64,000 nucleotides of DNA from NCBI GenBank assembly GCA_026626905.1, contig JAPNUX010000001.1:186001-250000 (forward strand), in the 5' to 3' direction. Below the pieces are notes generated by a model that was not told where the DNA came from, did no database searches, and was given only the letters and a program-made list of their open reading frames with translations. Positions 5,008 through 13,997 of the stretch are shown here, piece after piece (within the stretch, counting starts at the first letter, position 1; every line of letters begins with the position of its first letter). This DNA comes from Desulfurococcus sp. GTDB lineage: Archaea > Thermoproteota > Thermoprotei_A > Sulfolobales > Desulfurococcaceae. The position numbers were made by a program, and so were the translations under genes.

Positions 5008-6403
5008 AAGGCTTGCAACTACTCTCCTCTCGCGCTACAAGCAGGCTGCGCTAACCACGAATCCATCGCTGAAAACCTTTAAACGGTTGAAGCTAGAGCT
5101 CCTTGCATCACTAGCTTCCCCACCCGCCGCTATCCTACTGCTTTTGCTATCAGCGTACACGGGTCTAGAGGCCTATACAACACTACTTCTTCTACCAGTG
5201 GTTGTAGCACCAGCCTGGCTTGTCGTCGAGAAGCTAGCTTCAGCTAGAGAGCTGTGGAAGCGAGTAGACGACGAGCTAGATTTCTTCATAGTGGCTTCAG
5301 CCTCAGTCTGCCGGACTGGCCTGGAGCCCTTAGAGTTCTTAAGGAGACTGCAGGATTCAAGGGTTTTCAAGGGGTTTAGGATACTAGGTGAAAGATTCAC
5401 CGGGCTTGCAGGCCTAACTAGTGCTGGAGAAGCCCTCCACTACCTGCCTGCTCTATCTAGAGGTAGGACTAGAGTGTTCTTCACAGAGTATCTTTCAGCG
5501 CTTTCAGCCGGCGTTGTAGTAGAATACTTGCTGAGGAGTGCAAGTGAAGTCCTAAGAGACTCGTGGGTCAGGGTCTCGAGGATGATTGAGAAGAGAGGTG
5601 AGATCGGGGTGGTAATTGCTGTAGTATCAGCTTCAGTGCCAGCTTTAACTGCAGGGTTCTCGGTAATCCTGGATCCAGTGGTTGTAAGCCAGGCTCTCGC
5701 AGTCCTCGTGGCTACCGGTGTAGCTGGAGTAGTATTAATACCAGGCTACCCTCTCCCCTTGAGAATCGTAGTAGAGGAGAAGTACTCTAGGATTCTAGCT
5801 GTTCTAGAGGCTGCCGGGCTACTAGTACTGCTAGCACCACTAGTGCTTCAAGCACTTAATATTTCAGTGAGCAGGGAGGTAATCTTATCTACCAGCATAG
5901 CGTCAATTCTCCTCGGTGCTCCAGGCTTAATTGCAGTAATAAACGCCTTCATAGGAATCCACGCGCTTAAATCTATCCTCGAGGATCTCTTAAGGCATGC
6001 AAGAGTCTACAGGTCTATTCACCTCTATAGGAGCGAGAAGCTGAAGGCTGTGTCATCAAGAAGAGTTAGACTATGGCTTGTAGACTATACTCTCGAGGCT
6101 ATTAGATTCCAGAGAGGGCTCGGCGACGTCGACCCTGACATCTACGCTTTATTCGCGCTGTTTATTAGCGAGGTATCTAGGGTTCTATGGGCGTACCTTC
6201 ACAGTGTAACCGTAGTTCTTGCTGCCGCCCTCGCCACACCCCTCCTGCTTAAGGCTCTCGCCGTGCTCTCCCCTGCACCGATGACTACTATAGCCTACGT
6301 AAGCCTCCTGGTAGTAGGCTTTACGTCCTCTAAGCTAGTGCTGGGAGGGAATACTAGTACCCTAATACCCGGGGTGCTTACAGCCCTCTATGCTCTCCTG
6401 TAA
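4994..6403 (+). CDS. Type II secretion F / TadC-like pilus assembly membrane protein
   Basis: This is the inner platform protein that partners the preceding ATPase. The 469-residue protein starts with a basic cytoplasmic segment and then has two groups of membrane helices separated by soluble domains. One soluble block (about 85-195) contains the helical 'Asp-Asp-Glu-Leu-Asp-Phe-Phe' followed by a 'Cys-Arg-Thr-Gly-Leu-Glu-Pro-Leu' pattern typical of T2SF domains. A second T2SF-like block lies near 330-400. Duplicated T2SF domains are common in archaeal pilus and archaellum platforms. The ATG at 4994 lies within the end of the ATPase gene. With the pilin and ATPase this completes a minimal three-gene assembly system; no prepilin peptidase is in the window. 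Confidence 0.85.
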   Translation: MEYLRRLATTLLSRYKQAALTTNPSLKTFKRLKLELLASLASPPAAILLLLLSAYTGLEAYTTLLLLPVVVAPAWLVVEKLASARELWKRVDDELDFFIVASASVCRTGLEPLEFLRRLQDSRVFKGFRILGERFTGLAGLTSAGEALHYLPALSRGRTRVFFTEYLSALSAGVVVEYLLRSASEVLRDSWVRVSRMIEKRGEIGVVIAVVSASVPALTAGFSVILDPVVVSQALAVLVATGVAGVVLIPGYPLPLRIVVEEKYSRILAVLEAAGLLVLLAPLVLQALNISVSREVILSTSIASILLGAPGLIAVINAFIGIHALKSILEDLLRHARVYRSIHLYRSEKLKAVSSRRVRLWLVDYTLEAIRFQRGLGDVDPDIYALFALFISEVSRVLWAYLHSVTVVLAAALATPLLLKALAVLSPAPMTTIAYVSLLVVGFTSSKLVLGGNTSTLIPGVLTALYALL

Positions 6404-6443: not shown

Positions 6444-7259
6444 TTAAGCCCTGGGTAGGCAGCATCCTCTAACAAGCTCTACTAGCTCCTCTAGAGTTAC
6501 GGGAGGGCTACCCGTGTACCCGAGCATTCTAGCAACTCTAACTGGTGTTGGAGGTGCTAGCTCAATGCCTGCTAGAGTTTCCTCATCTCCTAGTAGCTCG
6601 CGGGCTGCTCCCCTACCTACAACTCGGCCTTTATCCAGCAGGTATACTCTATCAGCGATACGGGCTACGAAGTCGACGTCATGTGATGCTATTACAACCG
6701 CCCTGCACTCCCTCCTCCACTCTCTGATTAAGCGCTCTAAGAGCTCAACTACTCTAGGTGGGAGGCTTGCTGAAGGTTCATCTAACAGTAGCAGCCGGGG
6801 CTCGTAGACTAGTATTGATGCTAGTGCAACCCTCTTCTTCTCGCCTAAGCTAAGCTTGTAGGGGGGTTTATCGAGGATGCCCTCCACGCCTAGCTTAACA
6901 GCCACCTCATGTATCCTCCTAGAGGTCTCCTCGCAGCTGTAGCCTAGCTGCCGTAAAGCAAATGCTATCTCATCGCGTACAGTCGGGTTGAAGAGCTGGT
7001 CGTCAGGGTTCTGGAAGAGTACTCCTATATGTCTTCTAGCCCAGGGTAACTGCTCTCTCAAAGGCTTCCCGTCGAACAATACTTCTCCTCTAGTAGGCTC
7101 GAGGAGGCCGGCTGCAACCATGAGTAGAGTTGACTTACCGCTTCCATTAGCTCCAAGTAGTGCTACAACCTCGCAGGAGTCGACTTCAAACCCTGCTCCA
7201 CGGAGAGCTTCTGTTCCATCGGGATACTTGAAGTAGATGTTAGAGGCCTGGAGGAGCAT
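6444..7259 (-). CDS. cbiO: ECF transporter ATPase (CbiO/NikO)
   Basis: This is the ATP-binding subunit of an energy-coupling-factor importer for Ni2+ or Co2+. The 271-residue protein shows Walker A Gly-Ala-Asn-Gly-Ser-Gly-Lys-Ser-Thr (about 35-43), a Q-loop in 'Leu-Phe-Gln-Asn-Pro-Asp-Asp-Gln-Leu-Phe-Asn', which is very typical of CbiO proteins, the signature Leu-Ser-Leu-Gly-Glu-Lys-Lys-Arg, and Walker B Leu-Leu-Leu-Leu-Asp-Glu-Pro-Ser. It is the last gene of the cbiM-(PDGLE)-cbiQ-cbiO operon and abuts cbiQ with no spacer. Nickel rather than cobalt is favoured because nikR is divergent from the operon and a NikR-type operator covers the promoter. Confidence 0.93.
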   Translation of the reverse strand: MLLQASNIYFKYPDGTEALRGAGFEVDSCEVVALLGANGSGKSTLLMVAAGLLEPTRGEVLFDGKPLREQLPWARRHIGVLFQNPDDQLFNPTVRDEIAFALRQLGYSCEETSRRIHEVAVKLGVEGILDKPPYKLSLGEKKRVALASILVYEPRLLLLDEPSASLPPRVVELLERLIREWRRECRAVVIASHDVDFVARIADRVYLLDKGRVVGRGAARELLGDEETLAGIELAPPTPVRVARMLGYTGSPPVTLEELVELVRGCCLPRA

Positions 7260-8051
7260 CTACAACACCTCTAGGATCACGCATACAGTAGTTAATGCTA
7301 GCGTGAAGCCTAGTAGAGCGATGTCACTGAAGCCTACACGAAATCCTACACTATTATACGAGCCGTTGAAGCTTCTAGCTTTAACAGCCTTCTCCAGCCT
7401 CCACGCTACCTCATAGCCTCGGAGCAGTAGCTCACCTATAATCGATGATATTGATTTAAAAGCGAGTCTTCTATCAGGCTTTAAAATCCTCGCCTCCCTC
7501 GCCGCCATCATTGAGAGAGCATCACTGAGAAATAAGGGAATGTATCTAGCTAGTAGTCCAGTCATAAATACTAGTTCACGGGGAAGGTGGAGGCCTCGGA
7601 GTCCTTCAACAAGGCCACGCCACCCGAGATACAATAGAATAGCTGTAAGAGATGATGTAGCTGCTACTGCTCTAAGAGTTAAAGCGGTAGCCTCTCTTAA
7701 ACCGCTCCATGAAACCCTAAGAGCTAGCGAGCCTAGTGGAATCACAGCTACCGTTGAATCAGGGGTGGTGAAGAGTAGTGGTGTTGAAGCTAGTCCAACA
7801 AGAATAGCGATGAATACCACAGGTTTAACCCACGCCTTCAAGTCTATTTTAAGCAGGAAGGCGAGGAGTATGGATGCCAGTAGTATTAGGCTGGGTGCGA
7901 GAAGACCCCGAGTGAAAGATGCTGTTGAAGCGAGAATTACAGCCGAGGCAACAGCTACTGAAGGATTAAAGGAGAAAACAGGGGATCCAGTGCTTAAAGC
8001 CTCCATAACCTCTCTTAACTCCTCGATGAAGCGTGCTGTGAGCCCCTGCAA
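7260..8051 (-). CDS. cbiQ: ECF transporter transmembrane subunit (CbiQ/NikQ)
   Basis: This is the T component that couples the ATPase to the substrate-binding membrane subunit. The 263-residue protein has about five to six hydrophobic helices. The conserved cytoplasmic coupling motifs are present near the C-terminal third as Ala-Arg-Glu-Ala-Arg and Ala-Val-Lys-Ala-Arg-Ser, matching the Ala-Arg-Gly pairs of EcfT/CbiQ proteins that dock on the ATPases. The TTG start at 8051 overlaps the preceding small gene by 37 nt but has GGTGG about 8 nt upstream, which supports it; an ATG at 8006 is an alternative. Confidence 0.9.
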   Translation of the reverse strand: MQGLTARFIEELREVMEALSTGSPVFSFNPSVAVASAVILASTASFTRGLLAPSLILLASILLAFLLKIDLKAWVKPVVFIAILVGLASTPLLFTTPDSTVAVIPLGSLALRVSWSGLREATALTLRAVAATSSLTAILLYLGWRGLVEGLRGLHLPRELVFMTGLLARYIPLFLSDALSMMAAREARILKPDRRLAFKSISSIIGELLLRGYEVAWRLEKAVKARSFNGSYNSVGFRVGFSDIALLGFTLALTTVCVILEVL

Positions 8052-8341
8052 CCCTCTGCCACCATCCTCGATAGGATGTATCCCGCGGCTAGTATAATGC
8101 TTACACCAATAAACCCTGATACAATGTAGCCAATAGTGTCTGGGAGACCTGGAATCCTGTAGTCTACGAGAGGCGTCCAGTTAACTTCTTCTGTGATATC
8201 CTTGAGGCCTAATGCTTCAGCAGCGAGATCCAGTGGTTCATGGTAGCCTACTAGGTCTGCTAGTATCACGCCGAAGACTGGGCTAACAAGCACTAAGACT
8301 ACTATAGCCAGCAATACCTTTGATATCTTCACGTTCACCAC
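8015..8341 (-). CDS. PDGLE-domain Ni/Co ECF transporter accessory protein (NikN-like)
   Basis: This 108-residue protein has an N-terminal hydrophobic helix (about 7-28), an extracytoplasmic loop and a second helix (about 77-97), the topology of CbiN/NikN accessory subunits. The loop carries Glu-Pro-Leu-Asp-Leu-Ala-Ala-Glu-Ala-Leu-Gly-Leu, followed by Asn-Trp-Thr-Pro-Leu-Val-Asp-Tyr-Arg-Ile-Pro-Gly, the conserved layout of PDGLE-domain proteins that replace CbiN in many nickel systems. It probably forms the substrate-capture unit together with the CbiM-like protein. It starts within the last codons of cbiM (7-nt overlap), so the two are co-translated. Confidence 0.85.
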   Translation of the reverse strand: MVNVKISKVLLAIVVLVLVSPVFGVILADLVGYHEPLDLAAEALGLKDITEEVNWTPLVDYRIPGLPDTIGYIVSGFIGVSIILAAGYILSRMVAEGCRGSQHASSRS

Positions 8342-8979
8342 CTCTCAGCTGCAATCAACCCCGGGGATCTCGCTGCAATATACTCTACTACAGCTGCTGT
8401 AATAGCACCCTCAACAACCCCGAGGACAGCGTGCCAGCCCCCCATTACCGGGATAGTCACCGTATACCCGTAAGGGGTTGAAGGTGAGAGCCCTATCTCA
8501 ACACCACACGCTAAGCCAGCGATCAACGTGCTAGCCCATCCAGCGAGAAACGCAGCAGTAGCTCTAGTAGTACTTGAGGCTCCAAACCTCCTCACGATAA
8601 CCCTGTAGAGAGCATAGCCTACGAGAACACCTATAATCCCCATGTTAAGCACATTAGCTCCAAGCGCTGTTATACCTCCATCATGGAATACTAGGCACTG
8701 CACTAAGAGCACTAGGAAGAGAGCAAGGAATCCAAGCCAGGGGCCAAGCAGTATCCCAGCTAGAGCACTACCAACAAAGTGAAGCGATGTCCCGCCGGGT
8801 ATCGGCCAGTTAAGCATTTGAGCAGCAAAGATAGAAGCTGCTAGAACTGTGACTAGTGGAGCACTCTCAGGATTCAACGAGAGCTTTACACGCTTGAACG
8901 CGTAGACAGCAAATGCCACGAATATAGCATAGGTAGCTCCCGCTGATACTGGATCCAGGAATCCATCAGGTATATGCAT
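8335..8979 (-). CDS. cbiM: ECF transporter substrate-binding membrane protein (CbiM/NikM)
   Basis: This is the S component for Ni2+/Co2+. The 214-residue protein begins exactly with Met-His-Ile-Pro-Asp-Gly-Phe-Leu-Asp-Pro, the diagnostic N-terminus whose free amino group and His2 coordinate the metal in CbiM/NikM. A second metal-site region follows with His-Phe-Val-Gly (about residue 66) and His-Asp-Gly-Gly. About six membrane helices are apparent. It is the first gene of the operon. The start codon lies 18 nt downstream of the 28-bp NikR-type operator, so nickel-dependent repression is the likely control. NikM and CbiM cannot be separated from sequence alone; context favours nickel. Confidence 0.93.
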   Translation of the reverse strand: MHIPDGFLDPVSAGATYAIFVAFAVYAFKRVKLSLNPESAPLVTVLAASIFAAQMLNWPIPGGTSLHFVGSALAGILLGPWLGFLALFLVLLVQCLVFHDGGITALGANVLNMGIIGVLVGYALYRVIVRRFGASSTTRATAAFLAGWASTLIAGLACGVEIGLSPSTPYGYTVTIPVMGGWHAVLGVVEGAITAAVVEYIAARSPGLIAAERW

Positions 8980-8997
8980 ACCACTCCACCTAACTCA

Positions 8998-9025
8998 GTA
9001 TTACTTTCCAGTGTTTTAGTAGCAC
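8998..9025 (-). promoter_or_regulatory. NikR-type operator of the ECF nickel operon
   Basis: An imperfect 28-bp inverted repeat, GTATTAC-N14-GTAGCAC on the + strand, has the same spacing as the perfect site at 9773-9800 and the same overall geometry (6-N16-6) as the known E. coli nik operator. It sits where minus-strand transcription of cbiM should begin, about 25 nt from the TATA element at 9030-9044, so a bound NikR would block initiation. Confidence 0.7.
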
Positions 9026-9029
9026 TAAT

Positions 9030-9044
9030 CCATTTATATATTTC
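9030..9044. promoter_or_regulatory. Shared TATA element between cbiM operon and nikR
   Basis: The AT-rich CATTTATATATTTCC reads as a TATA box in both directions (TTTATATAT on +, TATATAAAT on -). On the minus strand it places initiation near 9011, inside the operator. On the plus strand it places initiation near 9063, about ten bases before the nikR ATG, where GGGAG provides a ribosome-binding site. Confidence 0.55.
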
Positions 9045-9073
9045 CTGTATTTGCATAATATTGGGAGAACACT

Positions 9074-9478
9074 ATGAAGAGGGAAAACGTGAAGAGATTT
9101 AGTGTCTCGGTACCACCTAAACTACTAAGAGACTTCGATGAATTTGTTAAGAGCATGGGCTACAAGCGTTCAAGAGCAATCCAGCTCGCCATGCAGAACT
9201 TTCTATCGGAGTACGCAGTGAAACGTGGAAAAGAAGTAGTAGCTGGCGCCATCCTCATGCTCTACGACCACAAGAGAGTGAAAGATACACTAACAGACAT
9301 ACAACACGAGTACACCAATGTAATTAAGTCAACAATACACATTCACATAGATGAACGAAACTGCTTTGAAGTAGTAGCTGTTATAGGTGAAGCAGAAGTC
9401 ATCCAGAACTTAGCTAGAAAACTAATGAAAGAAAAAGGAGTAAAACAACTAAAACTAACCGTATTCCCCCTCCCCTAG
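9074..9478 (+). CDS. nikR: Nickel-responsive transcriptional regulator NikR
   Basis: This 134-residue protein has an N-terminal ribbon-helix-helix DNA-binding domain (residues 7-45: strand Arg-Phe-Ser-Val-Ser-Val, then two helices) and a C-terminal ACT-like metal-binding domain. The high-affinity square-planar Ni site is complete: His78, His89, His91 and Cys97, offset by exactly +2 from the E. coli ligands His76, His87, His89 and Cys95. The protein should act as a tetramer that represses nickel uptake genes when Ni2+ is plentiful. Two matching operators flank it, one at the ECF operon and one before the FmdE/ABC operon. Its stop codon TAG is also the first three bases of a CRISPR-like repeat core. 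Confidence 0.96.
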   Translation: MKRENVKRFSVSVPPKLLRDFDEFVKSMGYKRSRAIQLAMQNFLSEYAVKRGKEVVAGAILMLYDHKRVKDTLTDIQHEYTNVIKSTIHIHIDERNCFEVVAVIGEAEVIQNLARKLMKEKGVKQLKLTVFPLP

Positions 9479-9687
9479 TTTTGCTTGTTTTAAACTTGAA
9501 GGAACAACCCGATGTACAGGTAGTGGAAGAGTAAACCTCTTAGTTTTGCTTGTTTTAACTTACCTTGCTGGTGTATTCGCCGAGTTCGAGGATACAATCC
9601 TCTTAGTTTTGCTTGTTTTTAACGAACGAATTGATCGTCGTGTCTTGCTACCGCGAGAGGCTCCTCTTAGTTTTGCTTGTTTTGAAC
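9476..9687 (-). CRISPR. Small CRISPR-like array, 4 repeats and 3 spacers
   Basis: A 16-nt core TAGTTTTGCTTGTTTT occurs exactly at 9476, 9541, 9604 and 9668, a period of 63-65 nt. The last three copies extend to about 24-25 nt, with CCTCT before the core and AAC, TAAC or GAAC after it. The unique spacers are 40, 39 and 39 nt (9496-9535, 9560-9598, 9624-9662). These are ordinary crenarchaeal CRISPR dimensions. The copy at 9476 lacks the CCTCT end. Terminal repeats usually decay at the leader-distal end, so transcription on the minus strand from a leader around 9690-9770 is inferred. No cas gene is in the window. Confidence 0.75.
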
Positions 9688-9699
9688 TGAGAGTGTTGT

Positions 9700-9742
9700 T
9701 AGCATTCCATGAGCCCGCGGAAAACCCCCTCGTTGAATGCTA
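9700..9742. repeat. Inverted repeat between the array and the fmdE-like promoter
   Basis: TAGCATTC (9700-9707) and GAATGCTA (9735-9742) are perfect 8-bp complements separated by 27 nt. The element lies in the putative CRISPR leader and directly upstream of the TATA box of the next operon. It may be a hairpin or a protein site; no role can be assigned. Confidence 0.4.
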
Positions 9743-9751
9743 GCCGAAAAA

Positions 9752-9760
9752 CTTATAAAC
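9752..9760 (+). promoter_or_regulatory. TATA box of the FmdE-like/ABC operon
   Basis: CTTATAAAC, preceded by purine-rich CGAAAA as a BRE candidate, lies about 25 nt upstream of the centre of the perfect NikR-type palindrome. Transcription should therefore start within the operator. Confidence 0.6.
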
Positions 9761-9772
9761 TCTTATCCTCTG

Positions 9773-9800
9773 GTATTACTTTTTCATGGAAAAGTAATAC
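9773..9800 (+). promoter_or_regulatory. NikR-type operator of the FmdE-like/ABC operon
   Basis: A perfect palindrome: GTATTACTTTT, six central bases TCATGG, then AAAAGTAATAC. Total length is 28 bp, and it reads as GTATTA-N16-TAATAC, matching the 6-16-6 layout of the E. coli NikR operator GTATGA-N16-TCATAC. It covers the predicted transcription start, which implies nickel-dependent repression of the downstream genes. Confidence 0.75.
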
Positions 9801-9812
9801 TAGGTGGGAGAA

Positions 9813-10475
9813 GTGAATAAGGAGGTCTTAATTGAGAAACTAAGAGATTTCCATGGTCATATATGTCCCTTTCTTGTTCTTGGCGCAAGGGCTTCAATAC
9901 TAGCTATGGAACATCTCGGTGTTAAAAAGCTGGGGGTTTATGAAAGTATTGAAGAGGACTTGCTGGCTATAGTGGAGTGTAACAATTGTTTTGCAGATGG
10001 TGTTCAGGTGGTGACAGGCTGTACTTTCGGTAATAATAGCCTGATATACTTCGATCTAGGTAAGAATGCAGTTACTCTAGTGAAGAGGGGTAGCTGGGAT
10101 GGAGTGAGAGTTTACATTGATGCAGAGAGACTTAAGGAACGTTATTTCCCTAAGAGCGCGCTTGAGCTCTTCGATAAAGTTGTTGTAAAAAGAAGTGGAT
10201 CGGAGGAGGAGAGAAAGCTCCTCTTAAAAATGTGGGAGGAAATCGGCTATAAAATGCTTGAGATACCTAAAAGCGAATTTAAAATTGAGCGGGTTAAGGT
10301 TCAGCCGATCGAGCGGGCGCCAATATTTGGAAATGTACGGTGCTGTAAGTGCGGTGAACTCGTGATGGCAAGTAGAGCTGTCCGTATTTCTGGAAGAGAC
10401 TATTGCCTGAGGTGTGCTGGAAAACCATACTATGCTGTTATTGGGAGAGGAATAGTGAAGCTGAATGGTGAATAA
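9813..10475 (+). CDS. FmdE-family protein with C-terminal zinc ribbon
   Basis: The N-terminal domain matches the FmdE family (formylmethanofuran dehydrogenase subunit E-like). It begins with Phe-His-Gly-His-Ile-Cys-Pro-Phe (His14, His16, Cys18), followed by a conserved Cys-Asn-Asn-Cys and Gly-Cys-Thr-Phe-Gly-Asn-Asn region near 60-80. The last 50 residues contain Cys-x2-Cys and Cys-x2-Cys, a treble-clef or zinc-ribbon unit. No formylmethanofuran dehydrogenase is nearby. Its place at the head of an ABC transporter operon behind a NikR operator suggests metal handling, perhaps a nickel-binding or insertion protein (inference). GTG 9813 is chosen over GTG 9804 because GGTGGGAG lies just upstream. 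Confidence 0.82.
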   Translation: MNKEVLIEKLRDFHGHICPFLVLGARASILAMEHLGVKKLGVYESIEEDLLAIVECNNCFADGVQVVTGCTFGNNSLIYFDLGKNAVTLVKRGSWDGVRVYIDAERLKERYFPKSALELFDKVVVKRSGSEEERKLLLKMWEEIGYKMLEIPKSEFKIERVKVQPIERAPIFGNVRCCKCGELVMASRAVRISGRDYCLRCAGKPYYAVIGRGIVKLNGE

Positions 10476-10476
10476 A

Positions 10477-11622
10477 ATGAAGAAGCTTGCCATAGCATTA
10501 ATCATAGTTGTAGTTCTTAGTGTAACTGTAGCCTACCTGCTATATCCGCAAGTACAGAGTGGTTTAGGAGAAAAGCCTCCTGCACAAACTGAATACGTGT
10601 CGATAACTGATTTTGCGAATAGAACTCTAACCCTGCCGAGAAATATATCGAGGATTGTAGCAATCGGGCCTGGGATGCTCCGCCTCATCGTATATCTTAA
10701 CGCAGTAGACCTGGTTGTCGGTGTTGAGAAAGCAGAGAAAACCTGGGGTGTTGTTGGAAGAGACTACGCTATGGCTATAAAGGAGAAAATCGAGGAGCTA
10801 CCTGAAATTGGTCCCGGGGGGCCTGGTAACCCACCGGATCCCGAGCTCATATTATCCGTGAAGCCGGAGCTAGTAATCATGCATACAGCCTACCTGTCCT
10901 TCTACAACCCCGACGAGCTGCAAATGAGAATAAATGCAACTGTAATAGTTTTAGATTACACTCCAGCTACATCACCTGATCTCGAGCTATTCTATAAAGC
11001 AATAGAGATTCTCGGTAAAGCTTTAAACCGAGAGGAGAGAGCGCAGCAACTAATAGCATACACCAGGTCGTTGCTCGCTGATTTAAGCCGCAGAGTTGAA
11101 GGTTTAAACACAACAGCAGTTAAAGTATATGTTGGAGGAGTTTCAGCTAGAGGTCTCCAGCCGTTTACAGCCACGCAATCACCATACCCACCGCTCGTAT
11201 GGTTGAAGACTCAGAGCATATCTGATGCTTACGCTAAAACACAAGGGCTTCTATCCCTACAATTTGAAACTCTACTTAAGGAGCAGCCTGATGTAATATT
11301 CATCGATGAGAATAGCCTCAAACCTGTAATACTACCAGACTTTAAGAAGGAGCCATCAAAGTATCTAAGCCTTAAAGCATTCAGAGAGGGAAGAGTGTAC
11401 GGGCTCCTACCCTACAACTACTATCACTGCAATATCGCAGTGGCTCTGGCGAATAGTTACTACATAGGTAAAGTGCTCTACCCAGAAAGGTTTGCAGATA
11501 TCGACCCAGCCGAGAAGGCAGATGAAATATTCAGGGTGTTCGTAGGCAAACCAATATATGATCTCTTCCTGAAGGGCGGGTATGAGGGGTACAGGAATAT
11601 ATCAGATCTCTTCTCGAGTTAG
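10477..11622 (+). CDS. ABC transporter substrate-binding protein, BtuF/FepB type
   Basis: An N-terminal membrane anchor or signal helix (about residues 2-22, no lipobox Cys) is followed by a class III periplasmic binding fold: 'Asp-Phe-Ala-Asn-Arg-Thr-Leu-Thr-Leu-Pro', then Arg-Ile-Val-Ala-Ile-Gly-Pro-Gly, then Pro-Glu-Leu-Val-Ile. This is the pattern of cobalamin, siderophore and metal-chelate receptors. It probably captures a metal complex outside the membrane and delivers it to the FecCD-type permease encoded next. ATG 10477 is preferred to ATG 10465 because GGTG lies 6 nt upstream. The nickel-regulated promoter makes nickel (free or chelated) the leading substrate, though iron or cobalt complexes remain possible. 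Confidence 0.88.
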   Translation: MKKLAIALIIVVVLSVTVAYLLYPQVQSGLGEKPPAQTEYVSITDFANRTLTLPRNISRIVAIGPGMLRLIVYLNAVDLVVGVEKAEKTWGVVGRDYAMAIKEKIEELPEIGPGGPGNPPDPELILSVKPELVIMHTAYLSFYNPDELQMRINATVIVLDYTPATSPDLELFYKAIEILGKALNREERAQQLIAYTRSLLADLSRRVEGLNTTAVKVYVGGVSARGLQPFTATQSPYPPLVWLKTQSISDAYAKTQGLLSLQFETLLKEQPDVIFIDENSLKPVILPDFKKEPSKYLSLKAFREGRVYGLLPYNYYHCNIAVALANSYYIGKVLYPERFADIDPAEKADEIFRVFVGKPIYDLFLKGGYEGYRNISDLFSS

Positions 11623-11631
11623 GGGGTCCAG

Positions 11632-12678
11632 GTGAACAGGGTCTTCATCACCTATGTTTCTTTATTTACAGTAATGTTCATGTTATTTTTGATATCGGTT
11701 TCAATTGGCTCGTATTCTCTAAAGCCACTAGACTCCCTGAAGACTATTGTTTTAGGGAGTAGCGATAAGATTGTGAAAATCGTTGTGGATTTAAGATTAA
11801 GGAGGGCTGCTACGTGCATAGTTGTAGGGGCTATTCTAGGTGCTTGCGGTACTATTCTACAATATCTTCTACGCAATCCATTAGCATCACCTTATACACT
11901 GGGAATTCAGAGCGCGGCAGCACTAGGTGCTGGTATAGCAATCATGTTATTGCAGGGCGGCTCGATGATTGGATCACGCACAGCAGCTACTGCCACATTA
12001 ATTATTGAGAACCCCTACACGGTATGCATTCTAGCATTCACTTTCTCAGCCATGCAAGCTCTATTAATTCTTCTACTAGCATATGCCGTAGGGCTCTCCG
12101 TATACTCCATACTGCTTGTTTCTGCCGTCATGTCCTTTGCTGTTCAAGCTGTACTTTCACTACTACAGTACTTATTCTTTAACGAGATAGCTGTAGCCGC
12201 CTTAGTTTTCTGGACCTTCGGTGATGTAGGTAGGACATCATGGGTAGAAATCTGGGGGTTAACAGCTGTAGCATTCATTTTGCTACTTGCTTTCACCGCT
12301 AAATCTATCGATCTAGACCTCATATCTCTTGGAGATGATATAGCATCTTCAAGTGGCGTAAATCCAAAGATATTCAGAGTTGTATCAATACTTGCAGTCG
12401 CCTTAGCAACCGCGGTAGCCGTCTCCTTTACTGGAGTTATAGGTTTCGTGGGGCTTCTAGCAGGACACATGGCCAGGCTCTGCACTGGCTGGTCTGCAAG
12501 AAAAAGCCTACCGGCATCAGCTATTTTAGGGTCTATAGTCTTACTGGCCGCTGATATCGTAGGGAGGAGTGTAATTCCCGGAGTAGTCCTGCCGGTTGGC
12601 ATAACAACAACAATTATCGGTGTTCCCCTTCTCATAGTGCTTCTTGTCGGCGGTAAGCATGGTGTACCTAAAGATTAA
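11632..12678 (+). CDS. FecCD/BtuC-type ABC transporter permease
   Basis: This 348-residue protein has about ten hydrophobic helices. It shows hallmark FecCD segments: 'Arg-Leu-Arg-Arg-Ala-Ala-Thr-Cys-Ile-Val-Val-Gly-Ala-Ile-Leu-Gly' near residue 50, 'Asn-Pro-Leu-Ala-Ser-Pro-Tyr-Thr-Leu-Gly' near 85, and the ATPase-contact loop 'Gly-Phe-Val-Gly-Leu-Leu-Ala-Gly-His' near 270. It starts with GTG 9 nt after the binding-protein stop. It should form a homodimeric channel for the metal or metal-chelate substrate of the same operon. Confidence 0.93.
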   Translation: MNRVFITYVSLFTVMFMLFLISVSIGSYSLKPLDSLKTIVLGSSDKIVKIVVDLRLRRAATCIVVGAILGACGTILQYLLRNPLASPYTLGIQSAAALGAGIAIMLLQGGSMIGSRTAATATLIIENPYTVCILAFTFSAMQALLILLLAYAVGLSVYSILLVSAVMSFAVQAVLSLLQYLFFNEIAVAALVFWTFGDVGRTSWVEIWGLTAVAFILLLAFTAKSIDLDLISLGDDIASSSGVNPKIFRVVSILAVALATAVAVSFTGVIGFVGLLAGHMARLCTGWSARKSLPASAILGSIVLLAADIVGRSVIPGVVLPVGITTTIIGVPLLIVLLVGGKHGVPKD

Positions 12679-13417
12679 TAACGTTGAATTCTGGTACAGG
12701 AGCTTCAAGGTTCTCAGCAATATAACCTTCGAGGTATGTAAAGGCGAGGTTCTATCTGTTGTCGGCCCTAACGCTTCAGGGAAGACTACTCTGCTTAAAG
12801 TTATAGATGGTATACTAAAACCCCAGCAGGGCTCGGTTTACGTTGACGGTAAAAACCTGCAGGATTTTAAACGACTTGAAGTTGCAAAACTTATCGGCTA
12901 TGTTCCACAAAGACTTAATGTAATACAGCCACTAACAGTATATGATTTCGTCATGACTGGCAGGAAGCCGTATATAGCTTTCACTCCAACCAAGATGGAT
13001 AGAGATGCTGTACTAGAGGCAATTAAAGTAGTTCAACTCTCTGATAAACTATCAAGGAGTATTACAGAGCTCAGTGGAGGGGAATTCCAGAGAGCATTAA
13101 TAGCAAGAGCTCTTGCAGCTAACCCGCAAATCCTACTGCTAGACGAGCCAACAGCTAACCTTGACCCATACTATCAAATCGAGATATTGAAGTTAATAGT
13201 GAAGCTAGCGAGATCCAAGAATATATTGGTTATCATGGCACTACACGACCTTACACACGCCTACAAATACTCTGATAAAATCCTAATTATGAAGAATGGA
13301 GCAATATATGCAGCTGGAAGCCCGGACGAGGTACTCACCCCTGAGAATATATATAGTGTCTACGGGGTCCGTGTCCACGTAATTCGAGATTTAAAGAGTA
13401 TAGTAGTCGTAGAGTAG
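12659..13417 (+). CDS. FepC/BtuD-type ABC transporter ATPase
   Basis: This is the ATPase partner of the preceding permease. Walker A is Gly-Pro-Asn-Ala-Ser-Gly-Lys-Thr-Thr (about residues 36-44), the Q-loop is Tyr-Val-Pro-Gln-Arg, the signature is Leu-Ser-Gly-Gly-Glu-Phe-Gln-Arg, Walker B is Leu-Leu-Leu-Asp-Glu-Pro-Thr, and the H-loop is Met-Ala-Leu-His-Asp-Leu. All are intact. ATG 12659 is preferred over TTG 12644, giving a 20-nt overlap with the permease and implying coupled translation. It is the last gene of the NikR-controlled operon; a 220-nt spacer follows, holding a TATA-like TTATATACTTTAAAACC near 13462-13478 and no further gene that I can see. Confidence 0.92.
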   Translation: MVYLKINNVEFWYRSFKVLSNITFEVCKGEVLSVVGPNASGKTTLLKVIDGILKPQQGSVYVDGKNLQDFKRLEVAKLIGYVPQRLNVIQPLTVYDFVMTGRKPYIAFTPTKMDRDAVLEAIKVVQLSDKLSRSITELSGGEFQRALIARALAANPQILLLDEPTANLDPYYQIEILKLIVKLARSKNILVIMALHDLTHAYKYSDKILIMKNGAIYAAGSPDEVLTPENIYSVYGVRVHVIRDLKSIVVVE

Positions 13418-13637: not shown

Positions 13638-13997
13638 ATGAGGAGTGTAAGTAATATTGTTGCATCTATACTTATACTGCTGGCTGTAGCTCCTGCTATA
13701 GTCTACGTGGCTAGCGAGGCTGTATCTAGAGCTAGGATTACAGAGTATACTAGTACTCCATACAATCATGGTGTACTCTACCTCTTAAGGGATAACAATG
13801 GATTCAAGATTCTCATCTATGTTGAAAGACCACCGCAGCAATTGCTACTATATGATTCACAGGGCGTTGAATTTAATCTACTAGACTACTGTGATCTCAC
13901 TGTATCGAGAACCTGTATTCTCCGCCTTAACCTAGCACCCCCGGTCTACATGGTGGTTGACGGGGTTGTTGTGGAGGGAGAGGTGATTACTGGTTGA
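13638..13997 (+). CDS. Small pilin-like membrane-anchored protein
   Basis: This 119-residue protein begins Met-Arg-Ser-Val-Ser-Asn-Ile-Val and continues with a hydrophobic helix to about residue 25. The short basic start and Val-Ser at the helix entry resemble archaeal class III signal sequences, although the match is weaker than in the pilin at 3261. The rest is a beta-rich extracytoplasmic domain with a Cys pair (Asp-Tyr-Cys and Arg-Thr-Cys) that could form a disulfide. GGGGGTG precedes the ATG. Its stop overlaps the TTG start of the next gene, so the two are an operon. It may be a minor pilin; function unproven. Confidence 0.6.
   Translation: MRSVSNIVASILILLAVAPAIVYVASEAVSRARITEYTSTPYNHGVLYLLRDNNGFKILIYVERPPQQLLLYDSQGVEFNLLDYCDLTVSRTCILRLNLAPPVYMVVDGVVVEGEVITG

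Follow-up and report, generated by a model that had tools for sequence, protein, structure and literature searches.

Two matching switches very probably control two importers, one a known nickel importer and the other unstudied, in the stretch of Desulfurococcus sp. DNA analyzed here (64,000 nucleotides, hereafter "the window"). Both sites are, in all likelihood, operators of NikR, and nickel-loaded NikR would use them to shut off nikMNQO and fmdE-btuFCD when nickel is sufficient. The features involved are the following:

6444..13417, no strand assigned: probable acquired nickel module, between two pilus genes (one ending at 6403, the other starting at 13638)
6444..7259, minus strand: nikO, ECF ATPase (ABC_tran, E=1.2e-31; CbiO/ECF_ATPase families)
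7260..8051, minus strand: nikQ, ECF T component (CbiQ PF02361, E=1.7e-21)
8015..8341, minus strand: nikN, PDGLE-domain protein (PF13190, E=1.2e-7)
8335..8979, minus strand: nikM, substrate-specific component (CbiM PF01891, E=7.6e-66)
8998..9025, no strand assigned: predicted NikR operator 1, GTATTAC-N14-GTAGCAC, between the divergent genes nikM and nikR, over the putative nikM start site
9032..9040, minus strand: TATA-like box of nikM, sequence TATATAAAT
9074..9478, plus strand: nikR, 134 aa (beta-strand KRFSVSVP; NikR_C PF08753, E=4.3e-26; ligands HHHC)
9752..9759, plus strand: TATA-like box of fmdE, sequence CTTATAAA, preceded by BRE-like CGAAAAA and located before operator 2
9773..9800, no strand assigned: predicted NikR operator 2, GTATTAC-N14-GTAATAC, 13/14 palindromic, over the putative fmdE start site
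9804..10475, plus strand: fmdE (FmdE PF02663, E=2.3e-39)
10465..11622, plus strand: btuF/fecB-like substrate-binding protein (Peripla_BP_2, E=3.6e-15; closest solved structure 2etv, E=8.5e-78)
11632..12678, plus strand: btuC/fecCD-like permease (FecCD, E=1.1e-70)
12644..13417, plus strand: btuD/fecE-like ATPase (ABC_tran, E=1.6e-32), overlapping btuC

Domain searches bore out the gene calls of an earlier note on this DNA (NikR_C, CbiM/NikM, PDGLE or NikN, CbiQ, CbiO, FmdE, Peripla_BP_2, FecCD and ABC). The regulator aligns over nearly its full length with Pyrococcus horikoshii NikR (2bj1, E=1.4e-28), and the four nickel ligands (His, His, His, Cys) are all present in the alignment. No separate Pfam ribbon-helix-helix match was found in this protein; the N-terminal ribbon-helix-helix is recognized in the 2bj1 alignment, which begins at residue 7 and includes the strand (RFSVS/RFSIS). 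A CbiM-type S component, NikN, CbiQ and CbiO are encoded in one operon, as in NikMNQO importers, and the PDGLE subunit and the adjacent nikR suggest that its specificity is for nickel. The other operon encodes a substrate-binding protein, a FecCD permease and an ABC ATPase, the components of a Fec/Btu-type (type II) ABC importer, together with FmdE, which carries an FHGHxC motif and Cys62; residues H17, H19, C21 and C62 are invariant among orthologues. The true start of fmdE may be a GTG at 9813, which aligns with the start in relatives, and that of the btuD/fecE-like ATPase may lie further downstream. Between nikR and fmdE (9470-9759) there are also four CRISPR-like repeats (CTCTTAGTTTTGCTTGTTTT, period 63-65) and, after them, a leader-like stem-loop element of 72 bp (9688-9759) whose last 8 bp are the fmdE TATA box. 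A second copy of this element, 88% identical and also accompanied by repeats, lies elsewhere on this contig, at around 30 kb (L009, 1027-1098).

Site 2 (9773-9800, GTATTACTTTTTCATGGAAAAGTAATAC) matches the hexamers GTATTA-N16-TAATAC exactly, is palindromic in 13 of 14 base pairs and ranks first among the 28-mer palindromes of the window; the maximum in 40 simulated 64-kb sequences was 12. The earlier note had described a palindrome at this place and a diverged copy at 8998-9025, with nikR between the two, and both descriptions hold. Site 1 (GTATTACTTTCCAGTGTTTTAGTAGCAC) is the weaker copy: its first ten bases are common to site 2 and GTATTACTTT is identical in both, its right half (GTAGCAC) carries two mismatches, and only about half of its 14 pairs are palindromic. 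By hexamers alone site 1 is unremarkable, as six matches with two mismatches exist within the window. The hexamer pattern was indeed discarded as a search rule for being too permissive: with up to three mismatches it found 40 matches in the window when 32 were expected, and with up to two mismatches 126 in the genome compared with 64 in the control. In contrast, GTRYTAC-N14-GTARYAC, a pattern with 7-bp half-sites as in relatives that was picked after the sites were known, is matched exactly at only two places of the 1.27-Mb genome (99.9% complete), namely sites 1 and 2, and nowhere in 40 simulated 64-kb sequences. Site 1 acquires its significance from this result. No further exact site was found in the genome scan with this pattern, and sites with one or two mismatches were rejected as additional NikR targets because they are mostly noise (68 compared with 47 in the control). 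Both sites are 28 bp long and thus have the form of NikR-type operators (27-28-bp inverted repeats with half-sites around 16 bp apart), although the repeat in site 1 is imperfect.

The sites lie downstream of TATA boxes, as the earlier note had stated. Operator 2 starts 13 bp past the TATA-like box of fmdE and ends immediately before the fmdE start, while operator 1 starts 6 bp past the minus-strand nikM box, and 18 bp separate its end from nikM. In archaeal promoters transcription generally starts about 25 bp from the TATA box, a layout that would place a transcription start inside each operator. The order TATA box, operator and gene start is the same in several relatives, and the AT-rich stretch of the nikM box may serve nikR on the plus strand too. 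Nickel-loaded NikR, encoded between the sites, would bind both operators; at site 1 it would cover the start of the nikMNQO transcript and adjoin the nikR promoter, and at site 2 it would cover the start of the fmdE-btuFCD transcript. When nickel is sufficient, bound NikR would sterically block initiation, and both importers would be off.

The control of an ECF importer and a FecBCD-type importer by a single NikR, proposed in the earlier note, gains support from other genomes. NikR-type sites of 27-29 bp are found before fmdE and nikM across Thermoproteota and Archaeoglobi/Thermococci, far above chance: in 120 fmdE/nikM upstream regions, GTRTTAC-type sites matching at least 13 of 14 positions numbered 24 (0.03 expected), and GTRYAC-type sites (GTGCAC/GTGTAC) matching at least 11 of 12 also numbered 24 (about 0.8 expected). 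Expected counts were obtained from dinucleotide shuffles, and thresholds and consensus were chosen after part of the data had been looked at. In many relatives the fmdE operators lie at -20 to -33. The expectation that the palindrome would precede the orthologous operons of close relatives was borne out, with one difference: palindromes with the 6-16-6 geometry are present, but the literal GTATTA form is absent from the two same-genus genomes (G001, G002). Unbiased inspection of the equivalent fmdE position in these genomes yielded GTGCAC. GTGCAC-N16-GTGCAC precedes the fmdE operon at the equivalent position in G002, G028 and G035, a 27-bp variant does so in G001, and GTGCAC-type sites are found directly before nikM in G016, G017, G022 and G023. 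In 40 genomes of the host family, GTGCAC-N16-GTGCAC occurs 16 times, compared with once for the reversed control.

Sites of this kind were also seen at other loci. GTGCAC-N16-GTGCAC stands directly before a gene whose product, of roughly 120 aa, is an orphan membrane protein in four genomes (G001, G002, G003, G035; loci L074, L075, L076, L089). The protein has a conserved WHGE-VP-PPFLTAM stretch and no Pfam or NCBIfam match, and it is possibly a new nickel-regulated membrane protein. In L080 and L082 (G022, G025), a GTGCAC-type site is located before a radical SAM gene that has a GTPase-like gene as its divergent neighbor. An outward-facing GTAACAC-N14-GTGTTAC is found before nikM in L378, L379 and L381 (family f13) and in L360, and resembles the reversed signal reported for Desulfotalea.

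Across genomes, operator form goes with a residue in the DNA-contacting strand of NikR. This strand is KRFSVSV in the window NikR and typically KFGVYIP in relatives; the equivalent strand of Escherichia coli NikR is RVTITL and contacts DNA. When the third outward position of the strand is Tyr, the operator is of the GTGCAC type in 21 of 21 genomes and of the GTRTTAC type in none. Among non-Tyr NikRs, GTRTTAC sites make up 36 entries, including the window with its Ser/Thr-type NikR, and GTRYAC sites make up three (G452 and G456, where the strand reads KTGVA, plus G186, whose site is weak); 34 genomes, including most Archaeoglobales, have no site above threshold. The raw Fisher p value for the association is 2.5e-13. 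However, when the strand is left out of the tree, the Tyr NikRs still group in a single clade (99/94), so that the table does not represent many independent events: the link amounts to one change on the protein tree, and a causal role of the residue is unproven. An independent-pairs test was abandoned as independent changes were too few (three supported pairs, and one in the other tree), and therefore we claim no significance other than that of the raw table. The strongest cases are two swaps, in which the operator follows the regulator rather than the species. The window genome is a member of a Tyr family, but its NikR is of the Ser type and both of its promoters carry GTRTTAC-type sites; G243, a member of a distant family, combines a Tyr NikR with a GTGTAC/GTGCAC site. 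No report of the Tyr/GTGCAC operator form was met in the literature looked at, a check that left the 2006 NikR regulon survey outside.

Some observations count against the main reading: the half-palindromic site 1, the 34 non-Tyr genomes in which no site passed the threshold, and three genomes of family f3 (G051, G250, G233; loci L293, L288, L291) that have a GTGCAC/GTGTAC-type nikM site and in which only NikR-like paralogues without the full HHHC set were found. A second NikR-like family, with strand RFGVS/RFGIS and ligands D/EHHC, is widespread beside true NikR (e.g., L157, L158, L163, L165). In addition, a conserved element (GGTCCCCCGGTCCGTGAA...AGGAGGGCTCCGGTCATC) lies upstream of Tyr-type nikR in several genomes (L058, L059, L060, L066, L036, L039, L042). 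It is possibly an unannotated RNA; no Rfam match was obtained for the element in L058, L059 and L066.

One may argue that only site 2 is a true operator, that site 1 is a chance match and that nikM escapes NikR regulation. The weak palindrome of site 1 and the hexamer matches of equal quality in the window lend themselves to this explanation, which we nevertheless consider improbable: under the 7-bp consensus the site is exact and one of only two in the genome, it lies between the nikM TATA box and nikM, such a site precedes nikM in many relatives, and GTGCTAC half-sites are found before fmdE in Thermococci. Less credible still is an RNA role for the palindrome at 9773-9800, which would then be a hairpin of the fmdE leader instead of a protein site. 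The 28-mer can indeed fold as RNA into a hairpin along its entire length (z=-5.9), but the predicted transcription start is inside the palindrome, and the transcript would therefore hold only the right half. Furthermore, relatives with another NikR type have another form of the site, bases vary almost freely in the inner part of the GTGCAC form, so that no stem is kept, and there is no Rfam match. Regulation of both operons by NikR is the preferred reading; the history of the block and the cargo of the second importer admit further alternatives. The block of about 7 kb (6444-13417) was probably acquired horizontally. Conceivably, it could be ancestral, with loss and NikR replacement in the sister species rather than gain here; deep tree branches are weak, and one nested loss could look like a gain. 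We doubt this strongly, since the pilus operon is uninterrupted in both same-genus genomes, where the flanking pilus genes are adjacent (about 37-60 bp apart), the window NikR is 55% identical to NikRs of a distant lineage but at most 43% to those of its family (32% to those of the same-genus genomes), and FmdE falls outside the well-supported clade (100/99) of own-genus FmdEs. The simplest reading of the acquisition is a single insertion that carried nikOQNM, nikR, fmdE-btuFCD and their operators, the joint travel of both operons being suggested by their adjacency. The foreign type of both FmdE and NikR, together with the break that the block makes in a conserved operon, led us to reject in-place rewriting of a native fmdE operator.

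Concerning cargo, the FmdE-BtuFCD operon appears to be a recurrent NikR target in many lineages, which points to nickel as the substrate of this transporter family. The two same-genus genomes favor nickel too: they have no nikM match, yet keep NikR and the operator before fmdE, and the fmdE operon is therefore the visible transporter target there. Alternatively, NikR may act at site 2 for some other reason, with tungstate/molybdate or a corrinoid as the cargo of the transporter. The operon that gave FmdE its name belongs to a molybdenum enzyme, BtuC is among the proteins that the permease scores against, and the binding protein matches HI_1472, the molybdate/tungstate protein MolA. This match is weak (1.2e-9, compared with 8.5e-78 for 2etv, which is annotated as putative iron-binding only), and a close relation of the binding protein to HI_1472, of the MolBCA type, was not found. 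Against a different substrate stand the sites in many lineages, the genomes devoid of nikM and the mixed zinc and nickel present at the FHGHxC-equivalent site of a PF02663 structure (PMC2954224), a motif invariant here. On balance, a substrate other than nickel seems unlikely.

A broader proposal, for which we see about even chances, is that FmdE-BtuFCD is a distinct and widespread system for nickel uptake, present in archaea and some bacteria, in which FmdE handles incoming nickel, that NikR operators are split into GTRTTAC and GTGCAC codes set by one strand residue (Ser/Thr or Tyr), and that transferred modules carry the regulator with matching operators. The present results add a probable second nickel route to archaea, beyond the NikMNQO, NikABCDE and NiCoT systems that are the only ones in a 2009 survey (PMC2667541), and assign a probable metal to PF02663, a large family, and its Fec/Btu transporter. 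Two half-site forms, one spacing and one accompanying strand residue would also provide a natural test of how a ribbon-helix-helix code changes.

NikR itself, its 27-28-bp operators, the GTGTTAC form and nikMNQO as a target are already known. The 2006 survey of the NikR regulon by Rodionov et al. reportedly describes a signal that diverges among bacteria and archaea, and is said to present NikMNQO as a main target. In a literature search that did not cover that survey, FmdE-BtuFCD did not turn up among the targets of NikR. The E. coli nik operator, GTATGA-N16-TCATAC, has the same 6-16-6 geometry, as the earlier note pointed out, and E. coli NikR/nikABCDE also shares the regulator family, the nickel ligands and a nickel importer as target (PMC7055735); the differences here are the GTATTAC half-site, the ECF and Fec/Btu-type targets and the archaeal TATA promoter. 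The delta-proteobacterial signal, GTGTTAC-[N13/14]-GTAACAC before nikMNQO, is practically identical in half-site and spacing; that regulon, however, lists no Fec/Btu-type operon with FmdE (PMC545781), whereas the module described here links both importers and nikR. PF02663 proteins share the FHGHxC metal site and a zinc finger, and most of their genes adjoin those of metal-ion transporters, but their metal and function were left undefined (PMC2954224), while the NikR operators found here point to nickel. A precedent for a NikR-linked Fec-type nickel importer is Helicobacter NiuBDE, a FecBCD-type ABC importer that was horizontally acquired and for which, in the parts of the source consulted, the fecDE promoter is given as a possible NikR target and an FmdE component is not mentioned (PMC5140060); unlike the system described here, it is bacterial.
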